DNA of 64,000 bases from Natranaerobius thermophilus JW/NM-WN-LF (GCF_000020005.1 NC_010718.1:687001-751000); one strand, 5' to 3'; positions 2,365-32,952 are shown, counted from the stretch's first letter. The notes: generated from the letters alone by a model not told the origin. Numbers and translations are program-made.

Positions 2365-3453
2365 ATGGGAAGCTTAAAAGAACGAGTTGAAATAGTTGAT
2401 GCTTTAAGGGGATTTGCTTTATTCGGAATGTTAATTGCCAATTTGGGTGTCTTTACTCATAACGAAATAGATTTTTTGGAAATGGCTTCTACAATTTATT
2501 CTCAATTTATTCTCAATAATTTTTATCCCATGTTTGCGATTTTATTTGGACTCAGTTTTTATATGTTCATGTCTCGTCCGCGTAATACAAAACTTATTTT
2601 TGTTAGACGGCTAGTCATACTATTGATACTGGGCATTATGCACATGGTATTTGTATGGCATCTTGATATACTTCATGCTTATGCTATTACGGGGATATTC
2701 TTGCTGTTTTTCTACAAAATGGATTTATCAAGTTTAAAAAAATGGTTGGTTGTTTTATTCATTTTAGATATGTTATTTGCAGCTTTTTTAAGTGATTTAC
2801 TTTCTGGACTTGTAACAACATCTGCACCTTCGATAATATCCTCATATAATGCCAGTTCATACGGTGCTAATTTATCTATAACAATAGAAAATGTTCCGGG
2901 TATACTTTACGATGCTGTTGTTGACATTCCTCACCATTTATTTTTATTTTTGATAGGCCTTTATCTAGGGAAATCTGGAGTATTCATGGAAACCAGGGAT
3001 AGATTGGAATCTGTAGTGAGAGTGTCATGGTGGAGTATGGGTCTCTTTGTATTGTTTTATTTCTCAAGAATGATAGTGAGAAATTATGGTTTGGCTGATG
3101 AATACCTGTCCCTTCCTTTATCAAATTTATTTAATTTAAGTTTAACTTTCTTTTATATTACGTTGTTTGTAGTGTTTTATCACTGGAAAAAAGATAACTA
3201 TATCTTTGATAGGTTCAGGTTAATTGGGAAGATGACCCTTACTAGTTATTTAACCCATAGTGTGATTTATTTGCTCTTATTCTACGAAATTAATTTGGGA
3301 CTTTATAATGAACTCCCGACTATGCTAACTCCCTTGTTAGCTGTAGTTATTTATCTGGCGCAATCAGAATTTGCCAGGATTTGGTTAAACAAATTTGGCC
3401 ATGGCCCTGTGGAGAAAGTTTGGCGTTTTTTTACTTACGTGGGAACAGATTAG
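2365..3453 (+). CDS. DUF418-type multi-pass membrane protein
   Basis: 362 residues with about eight to nine hydrophobic helices. The N terminus carries the family signature VDALRGFALFGMLIANL (residues about 11-27), typical of DUF418/YeiB-like proteins related to acyltransferase-3 membrane proteins. The C-terminal half contains the conserved-looking GKMTLTSYLTHS segment seen in this family. The start is supported by AGGAGG eight bases before the ATG. The family has no firmly established reaction; cell-envelope modification or transport is the usual guess. Its 3' end overlaps the convergent gene by 23 bases. Confidence 0.75.
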   Translation: MGSLKERVEIVDALRGFALFGMLIANLGVFTHNEIDFLEMASTIYSQFILNNFYPMFAILFGLSFYMFMSRPRNTKLIFVRRLVILLILGIMHMVFVWHLDILHAYAITGIFLLFFYKMDLSSLKKWLVVLFILDMLFAAFLSDLLSGLVTTSAPSIISSYNASSYGANLSITIENVPGILYDAVVDIPHHLFLFLIGLYLGKSGVFMETRDRLESVVRVSWWSMGLFVLFYFSRMIVRNYGLADEYLSLPLSNLFNLSLTFFYITLFVVFYHWKKDNYIFDRFRLIGKMTLTSYLTHSVIYLLLFYEINLGLYNELPTMLTPLLAVVIYLAQSEFARIWLNKFGHGPVEKVWRFFTYVGTD

Positions 3454-3904
3454 GATTAGCTACAGATCTTAAGATAATAGCTGATGCGGCTCCAAAAACC
3501 ATGTGAGATATCATGACTGTAAAAGCGGTCTTGGGATCTTCTTCCTGAAGTGAACTTGCTCCCATTTTAGCTAGTACGCCATAGGCGAAGGCCCAGGACA
3601 TATCCCCTAAAGCTACACCTTTTACAATGGGGTAATCTCTACCTGATAATGAAAATAGATAGCTTTTACAAATGCCGAGAATAGCTGCTACCGAGTTATC
3701 GGCAATCCATCCATTTAATTTACCTAGAGGTGTATTCACATGCCGGGCGGACATAAAAAATCCGCCCGCTTTTTGTAATCCAGTTTGATTAGTGTAACCT
3801 TTTTTATAGGCCGCATGCTCTATGGCTGTTTTTAATAAATTAGCACCGACTCCTGCCACTATACCTGCAAATACTCGATCATTTATCTTTCTAATTGTTA
3901 TCAC
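3431..3904 (-). CDS. Unrecognised membrane-associated protein
   Basis: 157 residues, glycine/alanine rich, with three moderately hydrophobic segments near residues 11-30, 70-85 and 125-148. I recognise no catalytic motif. The GTG start has only a weak AAGG ahead of it, so the start is uncertain. The gene converges on the DUF418-type gene with a 23-base tail-to-tail overlap and has no same-strand partner within 100 bases. It could be a small envelope protein; no function is assigned. Confidence 0.55.
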   Translation of the reverse strand: MITIRKINDRVFAGIVAGVGANLLKTAIEHAAYKKGYTNQTGLQKAGGFFMSARHVNTPLGKLNGWIADNSVAAILGICKSYLFSLSGRDYPIVKGVALGDMSWAFAYGVLAKMGASSLQEEDPKTAFTVMISHMVFGAASAIILRSVANPNLFPRK

Positions 3905-11915: not shown

Positions 11916-11992
11916 TGAATCAGTCTCCGTCCCGGAGTTAAGATAGTTTTAGACAGAAATCAAAACCCTCCGGGAGAAAGGAGACTGATTCA
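11916..11992 (+). promoter_or_regulatory. Long inverted repeat covering the transposase ribosome site and start
   Basis: TGAATCAGTCTCC at 11916 pairs with GGAGACTGATTCA ending at 11992, and CCCGGAG pairs with CTCCGGG inside it. The 3' arm contains the GAAAGGAGA ribosome site and the A of the transposase ATG. A transcript reading in from outside would fold and hide the start; one starting inside the element would not. This is a plausible guard against impinging transcription (inference). Confidence 0.65.
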
Positions 11993-13053
11993 TGACTAAA
12001 GTTGTATGCCCTAGATGCAATAACAACTGCTCTGACAAGTTTTATAAGTTTGGTTTTGATAATCATGGTCATCAAAAGTATCAATGTCAAGAATGTTTTA
12101 GTCAGTTTGCACCTAAGACACTTTCTAAAGGCGGGGATAAAAGAGGCCCTAATATGCCTCGCAAATATCCCTCTTGCCCTAAATGCGGGAAAGCTACATT
12201 TTTACATCACGACTATGAATTTTATTCTAATTTGAGGTGTTGTGACAAAAGCTGTAATCATTCTTTCTATGTCCCTAAACCTCAAAGTATTCCTGAACCT
12301 TCGCAACTTGATATTAACGGCAAAGTAGACTTCTCTAACATGAGACATCCTCTTCATACTATTATTCGAGCTCTTTACCTGTACTTCATTAATGGCAGCT
12401 CTACTAGAGGTGTCTCTCAATTCCTTCTTGATTGTGAAGGAATTAAAGTGTCTCATGTTACTATTGCTGACTGGACTAAAAAGTTTGCACCTCTTTTTCT
12501 TTATATCTCTAGATATCTTAAACCTATTGATCTAGACTCTTCTGATGAGTGGCATGTTGACGAAACTGTAATTAAAATTAAAGGCCAAAGATTCTACGCC
12601 TGGACTGTTATTGATGCTGAAACTAGATTTGTACTTGCATTTCATCTATCTCCTTACAGAGATAGCCAGGCTGCTTTTAAAGTGCTGAACTATGCTAAGA
12701 AACATTTTGGACGACCTCATAGTATCGTCACAGATAGATATTGGGCTTACAATGCTCCAATTAAAGTTCTGTTTCCAAACTCTAATCACATCAGAGTCAA
12801 GTCTTTTCAAGATGATATCTCTAATAACTTAATTGAATCTTTTTTTCAGATTTTCAAAAGCTGGGTTAAGCAACGCAGAGGATTTGCTTCTTTCCAGTCA
12901 GCCAACAAGTTGATTGCGGTATTTGTGTTTGCTTTTAACTTTGTTAGGACAAGCAATGTTTTGAATCAGTCTACTCCTGCTCAAGTTGCTGGGATTAATT
13001 ACTCTAATCGTAATAGGACTTTTTGGCTTTTACATAGTAATAATGCCGCTTGA
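11992..13053 (+). CDS. IS6/IS240-like DDE transposase with N-terminal zinc ribbons
   Basis: 353 residues. The first 100 residues carry two Cys4-type zinc-ribbon motifs (CPRCNNNC with CQEC, and CPKCGKA with CCDKSC). The catalytic DDE core follows: D in WHVDETVIK, D in SIVTDRYWAY and E in NNLIESFFQIF, with WVKQRRGF after the Glu. This arrangement matches IS6/IS240-like (DDE_Tnp_IS240) enzymes. The frame is intact with no stops, consistent with a recent insertion. Confidence 0.88.
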   Translation: MTKVVCPRCNNNCSDKFYKFGFDNHGHQKYQCQECFSQFAPKTLSKGGDKRGPNMPRKYPSCPKCGKATFLHHDYEFYSNLRCCDKSCNHSFYVPKPQSIPEPSQLDINGKVDFSNMRHPLHTIIRALYLYFINGSSTRGVSQFLLDCEGIKVSHVTIADWTKKFAPLFLYISRYLKPIDLDSSDEWHVDETVIKIKGQRFYAWTVIDAETRFVLAFHLSPYRDSQAAFKVLNYAKKHFGRPHSIVTDRYWAYNAPIKVLFPNSNHIRVKSFQDDISNNLIESFFQIFKSWVKQRRGFASFQSANKLIAVFVFAFNFVRTSNVLNQSTPAQVAGINYSNRNRTFWLLHSNNAA

Positions 13054-15650: not shown

Positions 15651-15711
15651 AGTGAAGTAGAGTAAAAAGCTCATTTTAAGAATAAAAAATATTTAAAAGG
15701 GGGAGATTCAT

Positions 15712-16464
15712 ATCTCAACTGAAAATTACAAAGAAAAGTTTAAAGAGGAATATGCCAAGGGGTTGTCGGAAAGATGGGATGAAATAATTGACTGGGAAAA
15801 AAGAAGACAAAGTGAAGATAGTTTTTTTGAAAAACTATTGCATAATCACGGGGTAGAGAATGTGTTGGATATAGCCTGTGGCACAGGATTCCATTCAATT
15901 CATCTAGCAAAAGCTGGCTTTAATGTTAAAGCTGCAGATGGATCAGAAGCTATGTTGGCAAAAACGAAAGAGAATGCCAAGCTATACAATGTGGATTTTG
16001 AAGTTGAAAAGGCAGATTGGTTAAAACTTACCAATACAATTTCTGAAAAGTATGATGCGGTCATTTGTTTGGGGAATGCATTGACACATTTGTTCTATGA
16101 AGATTATTATCGTCGCGCTTTGGAACAAATTTATCAAGTTCTCAACAAAGGCGGCATTTTGGTAGCAGATCAAAGAAATTATGATGCAATCTTGGAAACG
16201 GGTTATAGTAGCAAACATAAGTATTATTACTGTGGAGATGAGGTGGAAGTTAAACCTATAATTATCGAAGACGATTTTGTTAGATTTGCTTACAAGTTTA
16301 GTGAAAATGAAAAATATTATCTGACACTACATCCTATCAGAATTGATAATCTAAGCCAGTATATTTTGGATGCCGGTTTTGAAAAAGTGGAAACTTATGG
16401 TGACTTCAAAAAAGATTATGATAAATACGATTCTGACTTCATAATTCAAGTAGCCCAAAAGTAA
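15712..16464 (+). CDS. Glycine/sarcosine N-methyltransferase with apparent AUC start
   Basis: About 251 residues. SAM motif I is NVLDIACGTGFHSIHLAKAG. The GSMT-specific strings AVICLGNALTHLF, DQRNYDAILETGY and YYYCGDEVEV are all present, matching characterised glycine/sarcosine methyltransferases of halophiles. It methylates glycine to sarcosine and dimethylglycine. In this frame there is no ATG, GTG or TTG until TTG 15763, which would lose the first 17 residues (STENYKEKFKEEYAKG) and has no properly spaced ribosome site. AAAAGGGGGAG ends six bases before ATC 15712. I therefore place the start at AUC; TTG 15763 is the fallback. Followed 40 bases later by the nucleoside kinase. Confidence 0.85.
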   Translation: MSTENYKEKFKEEYAKGLSERWDEIIDWEKRRQSEDSFFEKLLHNHGVENVLDIACGTGFHSIHLAKAGFNVKAADGSEAMLAKTKENAKLYNVDFEVEKADWLKLTNTISEKYDAVICLGNALTHLFYEDYYRRALEQIYQVLNKGGILVADQRNYDAILETGYSSKHKYYYCGDEVEVKPIIIEDDFVRFAYKFSENEKYYLTLHPIRIDNLSQYILDAGFEKVETYGDFKKDYDKYDSDFIIQVAQK

Positions 16465-16504
16465 AAATTTAAGGGTTGAAATAAATGAAAGGGGGAGCAT
16501 TTTC

Positions 16505-17131
16505 ATGGGTCAAGTACCAATTGTAGTCGATGGTATGACGGGTTCGGGAAAAACTACCCTGGTGAATCATTTGGCAAATGAGTTAAATTTGGAAGTTATG
16601 CCGGAAGAATTTCGTGATCCCTATAATCTCTTGTACAGATTTGCCGATGATGTTAAATGGTGTTATCCCATGCAGTTAAACTTTTTGATGACCAGGTATA
16701 TACAGTATACGGTGGCATCTGAACATGAAAATTATATTCTGGATAGAAGTATTTATAGTGATCCGGTTTATGCAAAACTTTATTACAATATGGGTTATTT
16801 AAGTGAAAAACAGTACGACAATTACTTAAACTTTTATGATAGCCTGGAAGAAGATATCAAGGAACCAAAATGCATGATAATTTTAAATTGTTCCTTTGAT
16901 GAGATTATGCGTCGGATAGTTGATAGAGGCAGATCTGACGAGTTGAAATTATCCAAAGAAGGTTACTGGTGGCCATTATACCAAGCATATCAAGAACATG
17001 TTGATAAACTATTAACACAACAAGATCATATGTCAACAAAAGTGATTAGAATAGACACGGAAGATATTGACTTGGCCAAAAGAGATGAACAATTATTTGA
17101 TATTTTAAATCTAGCAGAAACGGCTATTTAA
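16505..17131 (+). CDS. Deoxynucleoside-kinase-family enzyme, candidate adenosine-salvage kinase
   Basis: 208 residues. P-loop GMTGSGKTTL at 10-19, the DRSIYSD substrate/Mg motif and a basic lid RIVDRGRSDEL place it in the deoxyadenosine/deoxyguanosine kinase family. It uses ATP to phosphorylate a nucleoside. Its place between the betaine methyltransferases and the methionine-cycle genes is unusual. Each methylation yields S-adenosylhomocysteine, which AhcY splits to homocysteine and adenosine. A kinase returning adenosine to AMP would complete the cycle and pull AhcY forward. That role is inference; the family usually prefers deoxynucleosides. GGGGGAG precedes the ATG. Confidence 0.82.
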   Translation: MGQVPIVVDGMTGSGKTTLVNHLANELNLEVMPEEFRDPYNLLYRFADDVKWCYPMQLNFLMTRYIQYTVASEHENYILDRSIYSDPVYAKLYYNMGYLSEKQYDNYLNFYDSLEEDIKEPKCMIILNCSFDEIMRRIVDRGRSDELKLSKEGYWWPLYQAYQEHVDKLLTQQDHMSTKVIRIDTEDIDLAKRDEQLFDILNLAETAI

Positions 17132-17182
17132 GGATTCTTTCATCCCAAAAAAAGATGAGAATGTTATAAGGAGGCCAAAAAA

Positions 17183-18352
17183 GTGAGTTTACCGGAATAT
17201 GTAGGACCATGTGCATTCGGAATCAAGATGGGAGTTGTCTTACCGGGCTCGGATTTAAAGAGTATGATTAAAAGTGAAATTATGAAGATTAACAAAGATG
17301 GGCTATTAGAAGACAATGATGCTCTGTGTGTGACAGAATCAATAGTTGCTAGGGCCCAAGAGAATTATATTACTACTGAGGAAATAGCTGAAGAAGTCAC
17401 CGATAAATTAAATCTAAAGCCTAATGATACTTTGGGAGTGTTATTTCCAATTTTGAGTCGTAACAGATTTTCGCTAATTCTTGAAGGACTTGCCAAAGCA
17501 GTTCCCCGGGGAAAAATTATTGTTCAGCTTTCTCATCCTGACGATGAAGTAGGAAATCAATTAATCCCTCCAGAAAAGTCTCAAGCACTTATAGATAAAG
17601 GATACAATGTAATCAAAGCAGAAGAATTGGAAGAAGATTGTATACATCCTATTACGAATGTTAACTATCTTAAGTTATACCGAGATATTATCACAGAGCA
17701 GGGAGCAGAAGCAGAGTTATTTGTTTCTAATGATTACCGTGTGATATTGGATTACCATCCTCAAGGTGTGTTATGTGCTGATATCCACACCAGGGAAGAA
17801 CATAGGAGTAAACTAGAATCCAAGGTAATTACTTGTACTCTTCAAGATTTGTTTAATGATAGCAGCAAGGAATCTTGGTCAGAATGGGGATTATTAGGCA
17901 GCAATATGTCTTCGGATAACAAATTAAAACTTGCACCTTACAATGCAGATGAATTTGCCTGTGAACTACAAAAAGAAATTTTAGATGCAACCGGCAAAAA
18001 AATCGAAGTAATTATTGGAGGAGATGGTGCATACAAAGATCCTAGTAGTGGTATTTACGAGCTGGCCGATCCTAAACCGGCATTTGGAACTACTCCTGGA
18101 TTAAGACAACATATGAGAGAAGGAGTAAAATATAAATATCTCATCGACATGTATCATAATCAAGGGAAATCAGAAAAAGAGATCCAAGAAATTATTGCTA
18201 AAGAATCTGAAAAGAAAAAAGGTAAAAATCACGAGATAGAAACTGAAGGGACAACACCCAGGAAAATAGAAGACATCCTAGCAAGCCTGGCCGATTTGGT
18301 CAGTGGTTCAGCAGATGCCGGAACACCTGTTATTCTAATCAAAAGTATTTAA
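17183..18352 (+). CDS. CofE-like (coenzyme F420-0 gamma-glutamyl ligase family) protein
   Basis: 389 residues. The N-terminal two thirds resemble the CofE/F420-0:L-glutamate ligase superfamily (ALCVTESIVARAQ, LSRNRFSLILEGLAKA, IIGGDGAYKDPSSGIYEL). In that superfamily a carboxylate is activated with GTP and joined to glutamate. The C-terminal 70 residues are charged and lysine/glutamate rich. No other F420 genes (cofC, cofD, cofGH) are visible. Here it sits in a one-carbon/methyl-cycle operon, so glutamylation of another molecule, for example a folate, is imaginable but unproven. GTG start with AAGGAGG. A strong terminator follows, so it ends the first transcript of the island. Confidence 0.7.
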   Translation: MSLPEYVGPCAFGIKMGVVLPGSDLKSMIKSEIMKINKDGLLEDNDALCVTESIVARAQENYITTEEIAEEVTDKLNLKPNDTLGVLFPILSRNRFSLILEGLAKAVPRGKIIVQLSHPDDEVGNQLIPPEKSQALIDKGYNVIKAEELEEDCIHPITNVNYLKLYRDIITEQGAEAELFVSNDYRVILDYHPQGVLCADIHTREEHRSKLESKVITCTLQDLFNDSSKESWSEWGLLGSNMSSDNKLKLAPYNADEFACELQKEILDATGKKIEVIIGGDGAYKDPSSGIYELADPKPAFGTTPGLRQHMREGVKYKYLIDMYHNQGKSEKEIQEIIAKESEKKKGKNHEIETEGTTPRKIEDILASLADLVSGSADAGTPVILIKSI

Positions 18353-18353
18353 A

Positions 18354-18383
18354 AACCTCCGGCCGGCTTGGCCGGAGGTTTTT
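18354..18383 (+). terminator. Strong rho-independent terminator
   Basis: An 11-bp GC-rich stem (AACCTCCGGCC/GGCCGGAGGTT), 5-base loop and T-run directly after the CofE-like gene. It separates the betaine methyltransferase half of the island from the metF/metH half. A TATAAT at 18398-18403 downstream may belong to a new promoter, but no good -35 is seen. Confidence 0.92.
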
Positions 18384-18441
18384 ACAAATGGTGTTACTAT
18401 AATTTCGAGATTAAACAAATAATAAAAAGGAGCTGTCCCAA

Positions 18442-19086
18442 TTGATTCAGATTAGCGATAAAGCTAAAATAGTTCCATTATATTCTGCAGTAATTAGGAG
18501 ATTTAAAGCCTTATCTCATAAGTATGATGTCAGTTCTGAAATGGATATTTTTTATCAACAAAAGTTTCTAGATGAATTTTTTTCCTGGCAAAAAGAATGT
18601 TTAAATTACGCAGATCCAAGTCTAGAGCTAAGAATCTTTGAAGCTGATAAACTGCCTAAAATCATTACCAGTAATTACGGGTATAATAAATTTGTTGTTT
18701 TTGCTACAACATTGGGGTTGCAAGCAGATCAACTTATTAATAAGAGTGCACAAACCGGTGAAGTATTTAAAAGTTATTTTATTGACTCCTGGTATTCGGA
18801 GAGTGTGGAAATCATTAACAGGCATGTGGAGAAATTAGTAAATACTCACTTAGATAAATGTGGTCGGAGGTTTTCTCCAGGCTTTAAGGATATTGACATT
18901 ACTGTTAATTATCAGCTGGGAAAAATGGCAAATTTCACTAATATAACCGTTAATGAAAATAATGGCATTTTAAAGCCAAGAAAAAGTACTATTTGTCTAG
19001 TCGGTTTTAATGATATAGCAGTCAAGAATACCAAAAAGGGAAGGTGGTTTTTGTATGAAGATATCCGAAATTTTTTCGCAAAGTAA
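18442..19086 (+). CDS. Stand-alone methionine synthase reactivation (B12-dependent MetH activation) domain
   Basis: 214 residues. The sequence CGRRFSPGFKDIDITVNYQLGK followed by TVNENNGILKPRKSTICLVGF (split here by 10 residues) matches the C-terminal activation domain of cobalamin-dependent methionine synthase, which binds SAM and remethylates oxidised cob(II)alamin. The MetH encoded 900 bases later lacks exactly this domain, so the enzyme is split into two polypeptides, as in Thermotoga. TTG start with AAGGAG eight bases ahead. Its 3' end overlaps the start of metF by 32 bases, so translation is probably coupled. Confidence 0.82.
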   Translation: MIQISDKAKIVPLYSAVIRRFKALSHKYDVSSEMDIFYQQKFLDEFFSWQKECLNYADPSLELRIFEADKLPKIITSNYGYNKFVVFATTLGLQADQLINKSAQTGEVFKSYFIDSWYSESVEIINRHVEKLVNTHLDKCGRRFSPGFKDIDITVNYQLGKMANFTNITVNENNGILKPRKSTICLVGFNDIAVKNTKKGRWFLYEDIRNFFAK

Positions 19087-19972
19087 CGGACCTGTTGTCT
19101 CCTTTGAGATATTTCCGCCCAAAAGGAAAAAAAATCAATCAAAAGAGGATTTTGATTCTTTATTAAAAACAATTGATAATTTAGCTCGGTTAAAACCTGA
19201 TTTTATAAGTGTGACTTACGGAGCTGGCGGTACCAATAGTGATGGTAGCTTAGAAATTTCCGAATACGTTAAAAACAAAGGGATTACGTCTTTACCTCAC
19301 TTTACATCCATCGGTTATCCCGTTGAAGAGATTAATTCGTATTTAGGTACAATTTACAACAAGGGTTTTGAAAATATTTTGGCTTTAAGAGGAGATCTGC
19401 CGAAAAGTCCTTCAAAAGCAGACTTGGTTTGGAGAGATTTTTTACATGCAACTGATTTGATCAAGGTTATCTCAAGGGATTTTCCGAATTTCTGCATAGG
19501 GGGAGCCGCTTACCCCGAAGGTCATCAAGAATCTAGTTATGCAGGGCAGGATATCGAGATTATGAAAATCAAAGAAAAAATGGGTGTAAAGTTTTTCTTA
19601 ACCCAACTGTTTTTCAATAACGATAATTTCTTTAAATTTATGGAAAATGTCAGGAATAATGGGGTGGAATCTCCAGTTTCTGCAGGTGTCATGCCTTTGA
19701 TTAGTCCTAAATACGTGGACAAAATCATTGAATTATCAGGTGTAAAATTACCAAAAGAATTAGAAAATGCTTTGGAAAATTACAGGGATGATGAAGTAGA
19801 ATTTAGAAAAAGATCCTTAGATTATTGTGTTAGACAGGTGAACGATTTATTTGAAAGAGGTGTGGATGGAGTGCATCTCTATACGATGAATCGCCATGAA
19901 GCTGTTGAAGAAATTCTTGACCAAGTTGATTCAAATGTAAACAGGGAGGTGGAACTATCAAAACAGACTTGA
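19055..19972 (+). CDS. metF: Methylenetetrahydrofolate reductase
   Basis: 305 residues. Reduces 5,10-methylene-tetrahydrofolate to 5-methyl-tetrahydrofolate, the methyl donor for MetH. Family motifs are VVSFEIFPPKRKKNQ, FISVTYGAGGTNSDGSLEIS, LALRGDLP and KFFLTQLFFNNDNFFKF, with the C-terminal GVHLYTMNR. The length is normal for a flavin-containing bacterial MetF. The ATG start overlaps the reactivation-domain gene, and its stop overlaps the start of metH. Confidence 0.94.
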   Translation: MKISEIFSQSNGPVVSFEIFPPKRKKNQSKEDFDSLLKTIDNLARLKPDFISVTYGAGGTNSDGSLEISEYVKNKGITSLPHFTSIGYPVEEINSYLGTIYNKGFENILALRGDLPKSPSKADLVWRDFLHATDLIKVISRDFPNFCIGGAAYPEGHQESSYAGQDIEIMKIKEKMGVKFFLTQLFFNNDNFFKFMENVRNNGVESPVSAGVMPLISPKYVDKIIELSGVKLPKELENALENYRDDEVEFRKRSLDYCVRQVNDLFERGVDGVHLYTMNRHEAVEEILDQVDSNVNREVELSKQT

Positions 19973-22350
19973 AACTAAAAGATCAACTAGTTAATAAAAC
20001 TTTGGAGAAGTTACTCTTTCTCGATGGCTCCTATGGTACAGAACTACAAAGAAGAGGTTTTGAAGGCAATGCGGAAATTTTAAATTTACAAGATCAGGAT
20101 TTGGTAAAAAATGTGCATTATGATTATGCCTCAGCTGGTGCTGATTTAATTTTAACAAACACTTTTGGTGGTAATAGATTAAAATTGAAAGATGCCGGAT
20201 ATGAGGATAAAGTTGCAGAAATTAATAGCAGAGGTGTTGAGCTGGCCAAGGAGTCAGCTGAAAATATTGATAGAGATGTTTTGGTAGTAGGTGATATATC
20301 ATCTACCGGTCGATTTATCGAGCCCGTAGGTGATTTGTCCTTTACAAAAGCTCAACAAGTATTCCAGGAACAAGGTCGTTATTTGATAGAAAGTGGAGTT
20401 GATCTAATAAAAATTGAAACAATGACGGATATTAAAGAGCTAAAAGCTGCTATATTAGGGATACGTTCAATAGATGAGGATTTACCCCTGATAGTTAGTA
20501 TGAGTTTTGAACAAGATGGTAAAACAATTACTGGTACATCTGTACCATCTTACGTCACTTTAATGAATGATCTACCTGTGGATATTATTGGTTTGAACTG
20601 TGGAGTCAAATCGAAAGATATGTTGGATCTTGTCAAACAGGCTTCTTACTATTCACTCAAACCACTTAGCATTTCTCCTAATGCAGGAGATCCGGACTTA
20701 GATCTGAGTTATAGTGAAGATCCTCAAGAATTTTCATTTTATCTTGATGCCATTTCTGATTTAGATATGGTAGCTATTGTAGGAGGGTGTTGTGGTACCA
20801 CACCCGAATATGTTGACAATTATTGTTCTAAATTAAAAGGCAAGGAAAAGTCCCGCAAGTTATTGCAACAATCTCAAATCCACAAAGATATACCAACTTT
20901 GATATCATCAAGAACTTATCAACTTGATTTAGACAATAATTTTGTCAAAATTGGTGAACGAATTAATCCAGCCTCCAAGAAAAACTTTCAAGAAGAAATT
21001 AATAATAAAGATTTTTCAAGGATTTATGATGAAGCCTTTAGCCAGATGAATGAAGGTAGTGATGTGATTGATCTCAATTTAGGTGTGGAAGAGGACGTGG
21101 AACTAGAAGATGTGGAGACAATTGTCAACGGCTTGGATTCCCTTGGATGTAAACCATTATCTTTGGATATTCAGTCATCAGTACTCTTGGAAAAGGCACT
21201 ACAGGTTTATCCGGGTAGGCCGATAATTAATTCGTCATCCTGTGACAAAGAAGACTTGGATAATGCCATTGACTTAATGAAAAAATACGGCGGAGTTTTA
21301 GTCTTGCTTGCTATGTCAGGTACTCCTAAAAAAACAATTCAAAAGCGATTGGATGAATTGAAATATGGCCTAGAATATTTAGAATCAAAAGGTATTGATG
21401 AAAGCAGGATTATGGTAGATCCCTTGGTTTTACCGGTGGGTACTGAACATGACCCAAAAACTACTTTGGAGCTGATCAAAATTATTTCCCAGGAAATGGA
21501 GTGCAAGACAACTCTAGGCTTATCAAATTTAAGTCATGGATTGCCCGATAGACCCCAACTGAACTCTGCCTTTGTTTCCATGGCAATTTATAATGGATTA
21601 GACAGCGCTATTATGGATACTTCAGATCAACTGGTAACCCAGACTGTGGAAAAATCACTGATGTTAATGGGTAAAGAAACAATTTGGGAAGATGTAGCAA
21701 TCGATACTGAAGATCAGATGGTAAAAGACATTTTGACAGGCAATTCCGACAAAGTATTAACACAGGTGAAATCTTATTTAAAGGATATGACTCCTTTGGA
21801 AGTGAGTCAGCAACTGCTGGGAAAAGCTATGAAAGAGATTGGTGATTTATACAACGATAAAAGTATCTACTTACCCCAGTTGTTATTGTCAGCAGAAACA
21901 GTGCAACCTTCCTTTGACTACTTAAATAAACTTGTAGGGGAGCACCAAGAAGATAGTAAAGGAAAAATTATGTTAGCTACCGTGGAAGGTGATGTACATG
22001 ACATAGGCAAAAAAATTGTAGGAACTATATTGAAAAGCGGAGGATTTGAGATATATGACTTAGGTGTTGATCTTCCAGCTAATGAAATTGTAGCAGAAGT
22101 CAAAGATATCAAACCAGATATCCTGGGTTTATCGGCCATGATGACTAGCACAATTAAAAAAATTGCAGAAGTCACAGAACAGCTTCAAGCTGAAGGAATT
22201 GATGTAAAGGTGATCGGAGGAGGCGCTTCTCTAAATCCTGAACTAGCCCAAAAGTTTGGTTGTCATGCTTATGCCAAGGATGCACATGAAGCGTTAACCA
22301 AATGTGAACAATTAATGACTGGTGAAAAAGCTTTGTCTAATGAGAGGTGA
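19957..22350 (+). CDS. metH: Cobalamin-dependent methionine synthase lacking the reactivation domain; apparent AUC start
   Basis: About 797 residues. Domain 1 (1-300) is the zinc homocysteine-binding barrel: FLDGSYGTELQRRG, GLNCGVKS and VGGCCGTTPEY give the three Cys ligands. Domain 2 (about 310-580) is the methyltetrahydrofolate barrel (KIGERINPASKKNF, DLNLGVEED). Domain 3 (about 600-790) is the B12 cap and Rossmann domain with EGDVHDIGKKIVG, whose His is the cobalt ligand motif DxHxxG. The activation domain is encoded separately upstream. GGGAGG at 19944-19949 points to ATC 19957 (7-base spacing); the only usual codon, TTG 19969, is 19 bases away. It overlaps metF and has the island's second apparent AUC start. 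Confidence 0.92.
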   Translation: MKTDLKLKDQLVNKTLEKLLFLDGSYGTELQRRGFEGNAEILNLQDQDLVKNVHYDYASAGADLILTNTFGGNRLKLKDAGYEDKVAEINSRGVELAKESAENIDRDVLVVGDISSTGRFIEPVGDLSFTKAQQVFQEQGRYLIESGVDLIKIETMTDIKELKAAILGIRSIDEDLPLIVSMSFEQDGKTITGTSVPSYVTLMNDLPVDIIGLNCGVKSKDMLDLVKQASYYSLKPLSISPNAGDPDLDLSYSEDPQEFSFYLDAISDLDMVAIVGGCCGTTPEYVDNYCSKLKGKEKSRKLLQQSQIHKDIPTLISSRTYQLDLDNNFVKIGERINPASKKNFQEEINNKDFSRIYDEAFSQMNEGSDVIDLNLGVEEDVELEDVETIVNGLDSLGCKPLSLDIQSSVLLEKALQVYPGRPIINSSSCDKEDLDNAIDLMKKYGGVLVLLAMSGTPKKTIQKRLDELKYGLEYLESKGIDESRIMVDPLVLPVGTEHDPKTTLELIKIISQEMECKTTLGLSNLSHGLPDRPQLNSAFVSMAIYNGLDSAIMDTSDQLVTQTVEKSLMLMGKETIWEDVAIDTEDQMVKDILTGNSDKVLTQVKSYLKDMTPLEVSQQLLGKAMKEIGDLYNDKSIYLPQLLLSAETVQPSFDYLNKLVGEHQEDSKGKIMLATVEGDVHDIGKKIVGTILKSGGFEIYDLGVDLPANEIVAEVKDIKPDILGLSAMMTSTIKKIAEVTEQLQAEGIDVKVIGGGASLNPELAQKFGCHAYAKDAHEALTKCEQLMTGEKALSNER

Positions 22351-31542: not shown

Positions 31543-31761
31543 AGAGAGCCCCTTTCTAATAAGTATAATTTCACCTTTAAATTCTCATGATAAATTATAC
31601 TATAATGTATCTTTAAAAGTAACTATTTTGATTAGAAAGTTCAGGATTTCTTGATATTTTTTACTATTATTGATAACCTATCAGTAAAAGGATTAACTAT
31701 CAATATAAATCTGATTAAGTTAATCTATAATAATAAATAAAAAGGGAGGTTATTTATTAAA

Positions 31762-32952
31762 ATGAATAACACTGTGGCTATTACTGATAAGATTAGTTGG
31801 ATAGGAGTAAATGACCGAGTTAGTGAACTTTTTGAGGCTATTTGGCCTTTGCCTGACGGTGTTTCTTATAATTCATATTTGATTAATGACGAACAAGTAG
31901 CCCTTGTAGATACGGTAAAGGATAGCGAAATCAATACATATTTGCAAAATATTAAAAACGTAATTGGAAATCGTTCAGTTGATTACCTAATAATAAATCA
32001 TATGGAACCAGATCATTCAGGGGCTATAGAGGCTTTAAGAAGAGAATATCCAAATATAACCCTTGTAGGTAATCAAAAAACATTAACTTTTTTAGAACAA
32101 TTTTACGGAATTGTGGAAAATATCAAAATCGTTGATGATGGAGATCAACTGCAACTAGGCCAACACACCTTAAATTTTTATTTAACTCCTATGGTGCATT
32201 GGCCTGAAACAATGATGACATATGAACAGAAGGAAAAAATATTATTTTCTGGAGACGCCTTTGGAGGCTTTGGAACTCTAGAGGGTGGCATATTTGATGA
32301 TGAAGTAAACTTGGATTTTTATCAAGAAGAAATTCGCCGTTATTTTACTAATATTGTTGCTAAATATGGACCTATGGTAGAAAAAGCTATTTCTAAATTA
32401 GCAGATTTAGATGTGAAGATTATTGCTGCTACCCATGGCCCTGTTTGGAGAGAAAAGCCAGAACAGATTATTGCAGATTACTCACGTTGGAGCCGACAAG
32501 AAACAGAGCCGGGCGTGGTTGTAGTTTATGGTTCAATGTATGGAAATACTGAAACCATGGTGGACACTATCTGTAGAAGACTGGCTGAGAAAGGAATCAA
32601 GAACATAAAGGTGTACAATATTTCTAAGACTCATGTATCTTATATTATTAACGATATCTGGCGATATCAAGGTTTGATTTTAGGAAGTTGCGCCTATAAC
32701 TCAAGAATTTTTCCACCAATGGATTATTTATTGTGCTTTTTAGAAAATAAAAACATAAAGAATCGACTATTGGGGCTGTTTGGCTCGTACACTTGGAGTG
32801 GTGGTGCCATGAAGAGACTTCAAGAATTCCAAAAAAATACTAAGCTTGAATTAATTGAGCCATCAGTAGAAGTGAAATCTGCTCCCAAGAAAAAAGACCA
32901 TGAAGATTGTATAAAAATGGCTGAAAATATGGCGGCGAAACTGAAAGAATAA
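31762..32952 (+). CDS. Flavodiiron protein (oxygen or NO reductase)
   Basis: 396 residues, the usual size of the core flavodiiron proteins. The N-terminal metallo-beta-lactamase-like diiron domain has the ligand motif HMEPDH, then PMVHWPETM, FSGDAFGGFG and ATHGPVW. Residues about 255-396 are flavodoxin-like with FMN loop YGSMYGNTETMVD and GLFGSYTWSGGA. It reduces O2 to water or NO to N2O using electrons from rubredoxin, protecting an anaerobe. AAAGGGAGG lies ahead of the ATG. Single gene ending at a bidirectional-looking terminator. Confidence 0.93.
   Translation: MNNTVAITDKISWIGVNDRVSELFEAIWPLPDGVSYNSYLINDEQVALVDTVKDSEINTYLQNIKNVIGNRSVDYLIINHMEPDHSGAIEALRREYPNITLVGNQKTLTFLEQFYGIVENIKIVDDGDQLQLGQHTLNFYLTPMVHWPETMMTYEQKEKILFSGDAFGGFGTLEGGIFDDEVNLDFYQEEIRRYFTNIVAKYGPMVEKAISKLADLDVKIIAATHGPVWREKPEQIIADYSRWSRQETEPGVVVVYGSMYGNTETMVDTICRRLAEKGIKNIKVYNISKTHVSYIINDIWRYQGLILGSCAYNSRIFPPMDYLLCFLENKNIKNRLLGLFGSYTWSGGAMKRLQEFQKNTKLELIEPSVEVKSAPKKKDHEDCIKMAENMAAKLKE

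Follow-up and report, generated by a model that had tools for sequence, protein, structure and literature searches.

The window analysed here is a 64,000-nucleotide stretch of Natranaerobius thermophilus DNA (positions 687001-751000 of a 3,165,557-base replicon), and the genes of interest lie in a plus-strand island that includes an SDMT-like methyltransferase, the glycine/sarcosine N-methyltransferase GSMT, metF and metH (Table 1); SAM synthetase, SAH hydrolase and an OpuAC-type betaine-binding protein are encoded nearby on the minus strand. Between 9625 and 22350, betaine synthesis by GSMT and the SDMT-like enzyme is combined with metF, metH, metK, SAH hydrolase and the OpuAC protein, which together make up a full set for methyl supply. 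Between SAH hydrolase and metK lies an IS240-type transposase (11992-13053). On a Roseinatronobacter plasmid, metF lies directly 3' of the GSMT gene. The metH product is a cobalamin-dependent methionine synthase (Pfam S-methyl_trans, Pterin_bind, B12-binding_2 and B12-binding) that has no reactivation domain. The 214-aa protein is similar to PDB 1j6r (E=1e-9), an entry deposited under the name "methionine synthase", and its gene is syntenic in the sister genus as well; it is probably the reactivation domain absent from MetH here, in free-standing form. In the CofE-like F420 ligase, the match to Pfam F420_ligase, a 218-position model, is spread over a much longer stretch; the protein would be an unusual member of the family, with insertions.

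Table 1. Genes, ribosome-binding sites and start codons discussed in the text (positions counted from the first base of the window; SD, Shine-Dalgarno; energies are those of SD pairing).
Feature	Position	Strand	Remarks
ORF of third window gene	3431..3895	-	154 aa, no Pfam family
Candidate ATT start codon of third window gene	3893..3895	-	SD -13.2 kcal/mol, spacing 8; no SD-supported standard start
SDMT-like methyltransferase	14808	+	island gene
GSMT SD site	15695..15705	+	AAAAGGGGGAG; -13.2 kcal/mol, aligned spacing 8
GSMT (glycine/sarcosine N-methyltransferase)	frame 15697-16464; 15712..16464 from ATC	+	250 aa from ATC
GSMT probable ATC start codon	15712..15714	+	T at -1, T at +4; in frame with 15697-16464
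dNK-type kinase	16505	+	island gene
CofE-like ligase	17183-18352	+	island gene, 389 aa
214-aa protein, TTG start	18442-19086	+	adjoins metF-metH
metF	19055	+	island gene
metH	frame from 19930; 19957..22350 from ATC	+	797 aa from ATC
metH SD site	19944..19952	+	GGGAGGTGG; -19.5 kcal/mol, spacing 7
metH probable ATC start codon	19957..19959	+	T at -1, A at +4; inside last metF codons
ATT AAA ATG, apparent ATT start	31756..31764	+	excluded from clean counts

GSMT and metH had drawn attention because each seemed to begin with AUC. The initial annotation held that the GSMT frame, between its upstream stop and the conserved sequence, offers no ATG, GTG or TTG spaced from a ribosome-binding site; the strong SD in front of ATC 15712 stands, but the statement has to be softened for TTG 15763 (residue 23 of the frame), which is preceded, at a spacing of 11 that is on the long side, by an SD-like stretch of weak pairing (-9.0 kcal/mol). 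The identity of the protein is given by NF051855 (E=2e-89, under the curated cut-off) and by PDB 5gwx (E=6e-71). In the alignment with the solved Methanohalophilus GSMT, the match begins at residue 13 of the frame, and with mammalian GNMT at residue 14; both positions precede TTG 15763. In 398 genomes of the phylum, no GSMT passes the family cut-off, the N. thermophilus copy scoring far above all others, and acquisition of the gene from an outside source is probable. As GSMT is thus left without a close relative, its AUC start rests on the placement of the SD, on the N-terminal homology and on the genome-wide rate described below.

For metH, the layout first described is borne out: GGGAGG (19944-19949) is separated by 7 nt from ATC 19957, whereas TTG 19969 lies 19 nt from the SD with a calculated pairing of only -2.4 kcal/mol. 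One further genome of the family was sampled (G001); it belongs to another genus and encodes a MetH ortholog that is 70% identical, the gene of which reads TTAAGGAGGGGATTTACTATTAAC, with ATT in the same register and the setting ACT-AT(C/T)-AA in both genera. We searched this ortholog for ATG, GTG or TTG upstream of the conserved FLDGSYGTE and found none. Several metH genes from beyond the family begin at an ATG or GTG with SD support.

In order to place these two codons in a wider frame, we surveyed 1.264 Mb of the 3.17 Mb N. thermophilus genome (1003 genes), in which genes were predicted by codon usage and every in-frame candidate start was scored for SD pairing to the 16S tail. Standard starts gave a tight SD spacing peak at 7-8 nt. 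We then took the genes with a strong SD and no SD-supported ATG, GTG or TTG, and compared the codons found at a spacing of 6-9 in frame with those in the two other frames. ATT or ATC made up 23 of 82 in-frame codons (ATT 19, ATC 4) vs. 3 of 182 out of frame (ATT 2, ATC 1; Fisher p=2e-10); the same test in the sister genus returned 10 in-frame ATT/ATC codons out of 23. After dropping those in which an ATG follows within two codons, we were left with "clean" AUU/AUC starts in 20 of the 1003 genes (about 2%), a few of which may be start-site errors, and in 8 of 320 genes of the sister genus. The genes concerned have unrelated functions (infC, birA, cobA, a ROK kinase, a BFN nuclease, a TetR regulator, a PBP, a pilin), and the sister genus adds murE, hslU and fliJ. 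ATT 31756 in the window was rejected, being probably a mere codon before the true ATG 31762, with which the ATG of the sister-genus ortholog aligns.

We also looked outside the family. A genome of the same order (G002) gave 5 of 305 genes, and the habit seems to exist there too, at a lower level. Four GC-rich relatives from the phylum (292 genes) gave no convincing case and one doubtful one, with an ATG two codons later, and two other low-GC Firmicutes had no AUU/AUC start in 225 genes. The N. thermophilus rate differs from the latter (20/1003 vs. 0/225, p=0.036) and from all controls pooled (vs. 0/517, the doubtful case being counted as none, p=4e-4), but these controls are modest in size (six Firmicute sets, 517 genes), so the extent to which the family is special is uncertain. 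A Cytobacillus stretch (L287) was excluded from the control set.

Comparison of orthologs was consistent with the positions retained in the survey: for metH and about ten other genes, the start lies at the corresponding codon in the orthologs. The ATT or ATC falls exactly at the ATG of the orthologs in the TetR, YaiI, ROK and YedE-like genes, in one gene of the same-order genome and in the third window gene (3895, minus strand), itself a clean case, whose same-order ortholog has ATG at the ATT position; in cobA, it falls within one codon of the ortholog's ATG. In infC, metH, birA, the BFN nuclease gene, hslU and murE, the non-AUG start is common to the orthologs: birA reads ATT, ATT and ATC in three genera, and murE has ATC in N. 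thermophilus (L260, G000:C2:1370842) and ATT in the sister genus (L178, G001:C7:4329), with no usable ATG, GTG or TTG near the N-terminus in the region examined of the N. thermophilus gene. As a positive control, the same script recovered ATT, ATC or ATA for infC in 30 of 30 relatives. Across infC loci (L099:16713 on the minus strand, L184:6227, L142 and 29 further), the SD layout is nearly fixed, with GGAGGTGA at 8-10 nt. Between N. thermophilus and the sister genus, AUU/AUC starts were retained in 6 of 11 pairs vs. 6 of 20 for GUG and UUG taken as one class (p=0.26), a retention that cannot be told from that of GUG/UUG; AUU/AUC thus behave like other alternative starts and are exchanged for AUG between genera with about equal ease. 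A first comparison, in which GUG and UUG were counted separately, had suggested special conservation (5/8 vs. 2/24, p=0.005); this was lost with the pooled class and more pairs.

The bases flanking these codons are not random either. U occupies position -1 at 71% of AUU/AUC starts vs. 38% of standard starts (p=6e-4), A occupies position +4 at 75% vs. 49% (p=0.007), and both occur together at 15 of 28 (54%) vs. 181 of 958 (19%; p=6e-5); among background ATT/ATC codons near gene starts, the combination is found at 15% or 13% (p=3e-6 and 4e-7). SD pairing is also slightly stronger at AUU/AUC starts (median -14.4 vs. -13.6, p=0.0035). This bias fits extra pairing with the anticodon loop of the initiator tRNA: UAUUA could pair with A37-U36-A35 and U33, the third codon position alone being mismatched. 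The initiator tRNA itself is canonical (C1-A72, three G-C pairs, CAU). According to the literature, IF3 discriminates against codons of the AUU/AUC/AUA type, to which the AUC of GSMT and metH belongs. The factor is of the canonical type on the whole; the C-terminal EGR/KNM motif shows an Arg-to-Lys change that is present in two relatives too, and the alignment gave no convincing lineage-specific change.

We, thus, consider it highly probable that ATC 15712 and ATC 19957 are the real start codons of GSMT and metH, and that they belong to a family-wide class in which AUU, and less often AUC, serves as a regular fourth-rank start in about 2% of the genes of N. thermophilus and its sister genus. 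Strong SDs, the lack of a well-placed standard start and the 23/82 vs. 3/182 enrichment all agree with the reading of the two AUCs as starts that the initial annotation had proposed. With somewhat less assurance, we think it likely that AUU/AUC have been promoted in this family to a standing fourth start class, normally essential genes included, which a strong SD and a UAUUA-type context would render usable, perhaps with relaxed IF3 discrimination. A strong SD 7-9 nt upstream would position AUU or AUC in the P site, where the ordinary initiator fMet-tRNA (CAU) would pair with its A-U; further pairs, of U at -1 with A37 and of A at +4 with U33 in the anticodon loop, would offset the third-position mismatch. 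Initiation at these codons would remain weak and probably IF3-sensitive. From the sequence data, we infer that initiation does take place there, with fMet as the first residue and at low efficiency; sensitivity to IF3 is plausible, as it follows from known biochemistry.

What these starts mean for the pathway is another matter. Two AUC starts in one pathway had been taken as a sign of deliberate control, with non-AUG starts holding the betaine and methyl-cycle enzymes low or tied to IF3 levels. Such an idea has precedents, as AUU and AUA starts (infC AUA, cvfC1 AUU and ccpN AUA, all with extended SDs) retain roughly 10-30% of AUG activity in Staphylococcus aureus reporters (PMC13009471), and as the GTC start of sigR in Streptomyces is repressed by IF3 (PMC5472188); the non-AUG start of metH is, moreover, kept across two genera. 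However, the same feature is found in about 2% of genes with no common function, its retention between genera is indistinguishable from that of GUG/UUG, and metF, SDMT and other neighbours use ATG, GTG or TTG. Deliberate regulation specific to this pathway is therefore not supported, and we regard it as unlikely. The window sampled a family-wide habit; the earlier reading was right on the codons and too narrow on their meaning.

A still less probable reading is that the AUCs are coincidental and that translation really starts at TTG 15763 and TTG 19969, both of which are in frame, the former with its weak SD-like stretch. TTG 19969, though, has no SD, the sister-genus metH lacks any standard codon before its conserved core, a start at TTG 15763 would remove residues aligned with the solved GSMT and GNMT structures, and the genome-wide in-frame enrichment would be left unexplained. 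Sequencing errors that turned ATG into ATC deserve hardly any credence: single-base errors do occur, and GSMT has no relative for comparison, but, where the initial annotation took ATG in relatives as the sign of such errors, the independent assembly of another genus reads ATT, not ATG, in metH, which together with the missing ATG/GTG/TTG before the core excludes an error in that gene, while the cases in which such a start is shared, or exchanged for ATG, are drawn from three assemblies, and infC reads as expected.

Starts at AUU or AUC are regarded as near-forbidden exceptions in bacteria, limited to infC and a handful of other genes, and the non-AUG start of infC is known as that of one self-regulating gene per genome. 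The AUU, AUC and AUA starts of infC share with those described here a strong extended SD, in infC 8-9 nt before the codon; infC is a single gene per genome, whereas in N. thermophilus the layout extends over about 2% of genes, of unrelated function. The S. aureus cases are similar in that an AUU or AUA start is offset by an extended SD, but they concern few genes, while dozens would be expected in N. thermophilus, including birA and murE, with the U-1/A+4 bias in addition. In Listeria monocytogenes, 6 of 2265 conserved genes have fixed non-canonical starts, of which infC ATT and rnhC ATC were confirmed (PMC13068326); here, too, ATT/ATC are fixed starts of conserved genes, at less than 0.3% compared with about 2% in N. 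thermophilus, the methods being different. The sigR gene is likewise a chromosomal non-AUG start outside infC, but with GTC and demonstrated IF3 repression, whereas N. thermophilus has AUU/AUC and IF3 control is putative. Our literature search, of partial coverage and hence weak as evidence, found no report of AUU/AUC starts in Natranaerobius or at the 2% level.

If this class of starts is real, gene callers limited to ATG, GTG and TTG would overlook genes of this lineage, metH, murE and birA among them, or give them wrong starts, and the family would offer a natural system for the joint role of SD strength, codon context and IF3 in start-codon fidelity; the U-1/A+4 bias makes extended pairing between codon and anticodon loop testable from natural sequences. 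A further candidate came from a Cytobacillus prophage, where the portal-protein gene (L226:15403) has an ATA eight nt past a very strong SD (-21 kcal/mol), 6 nt downstream of the annotated start, a possible AUA start.
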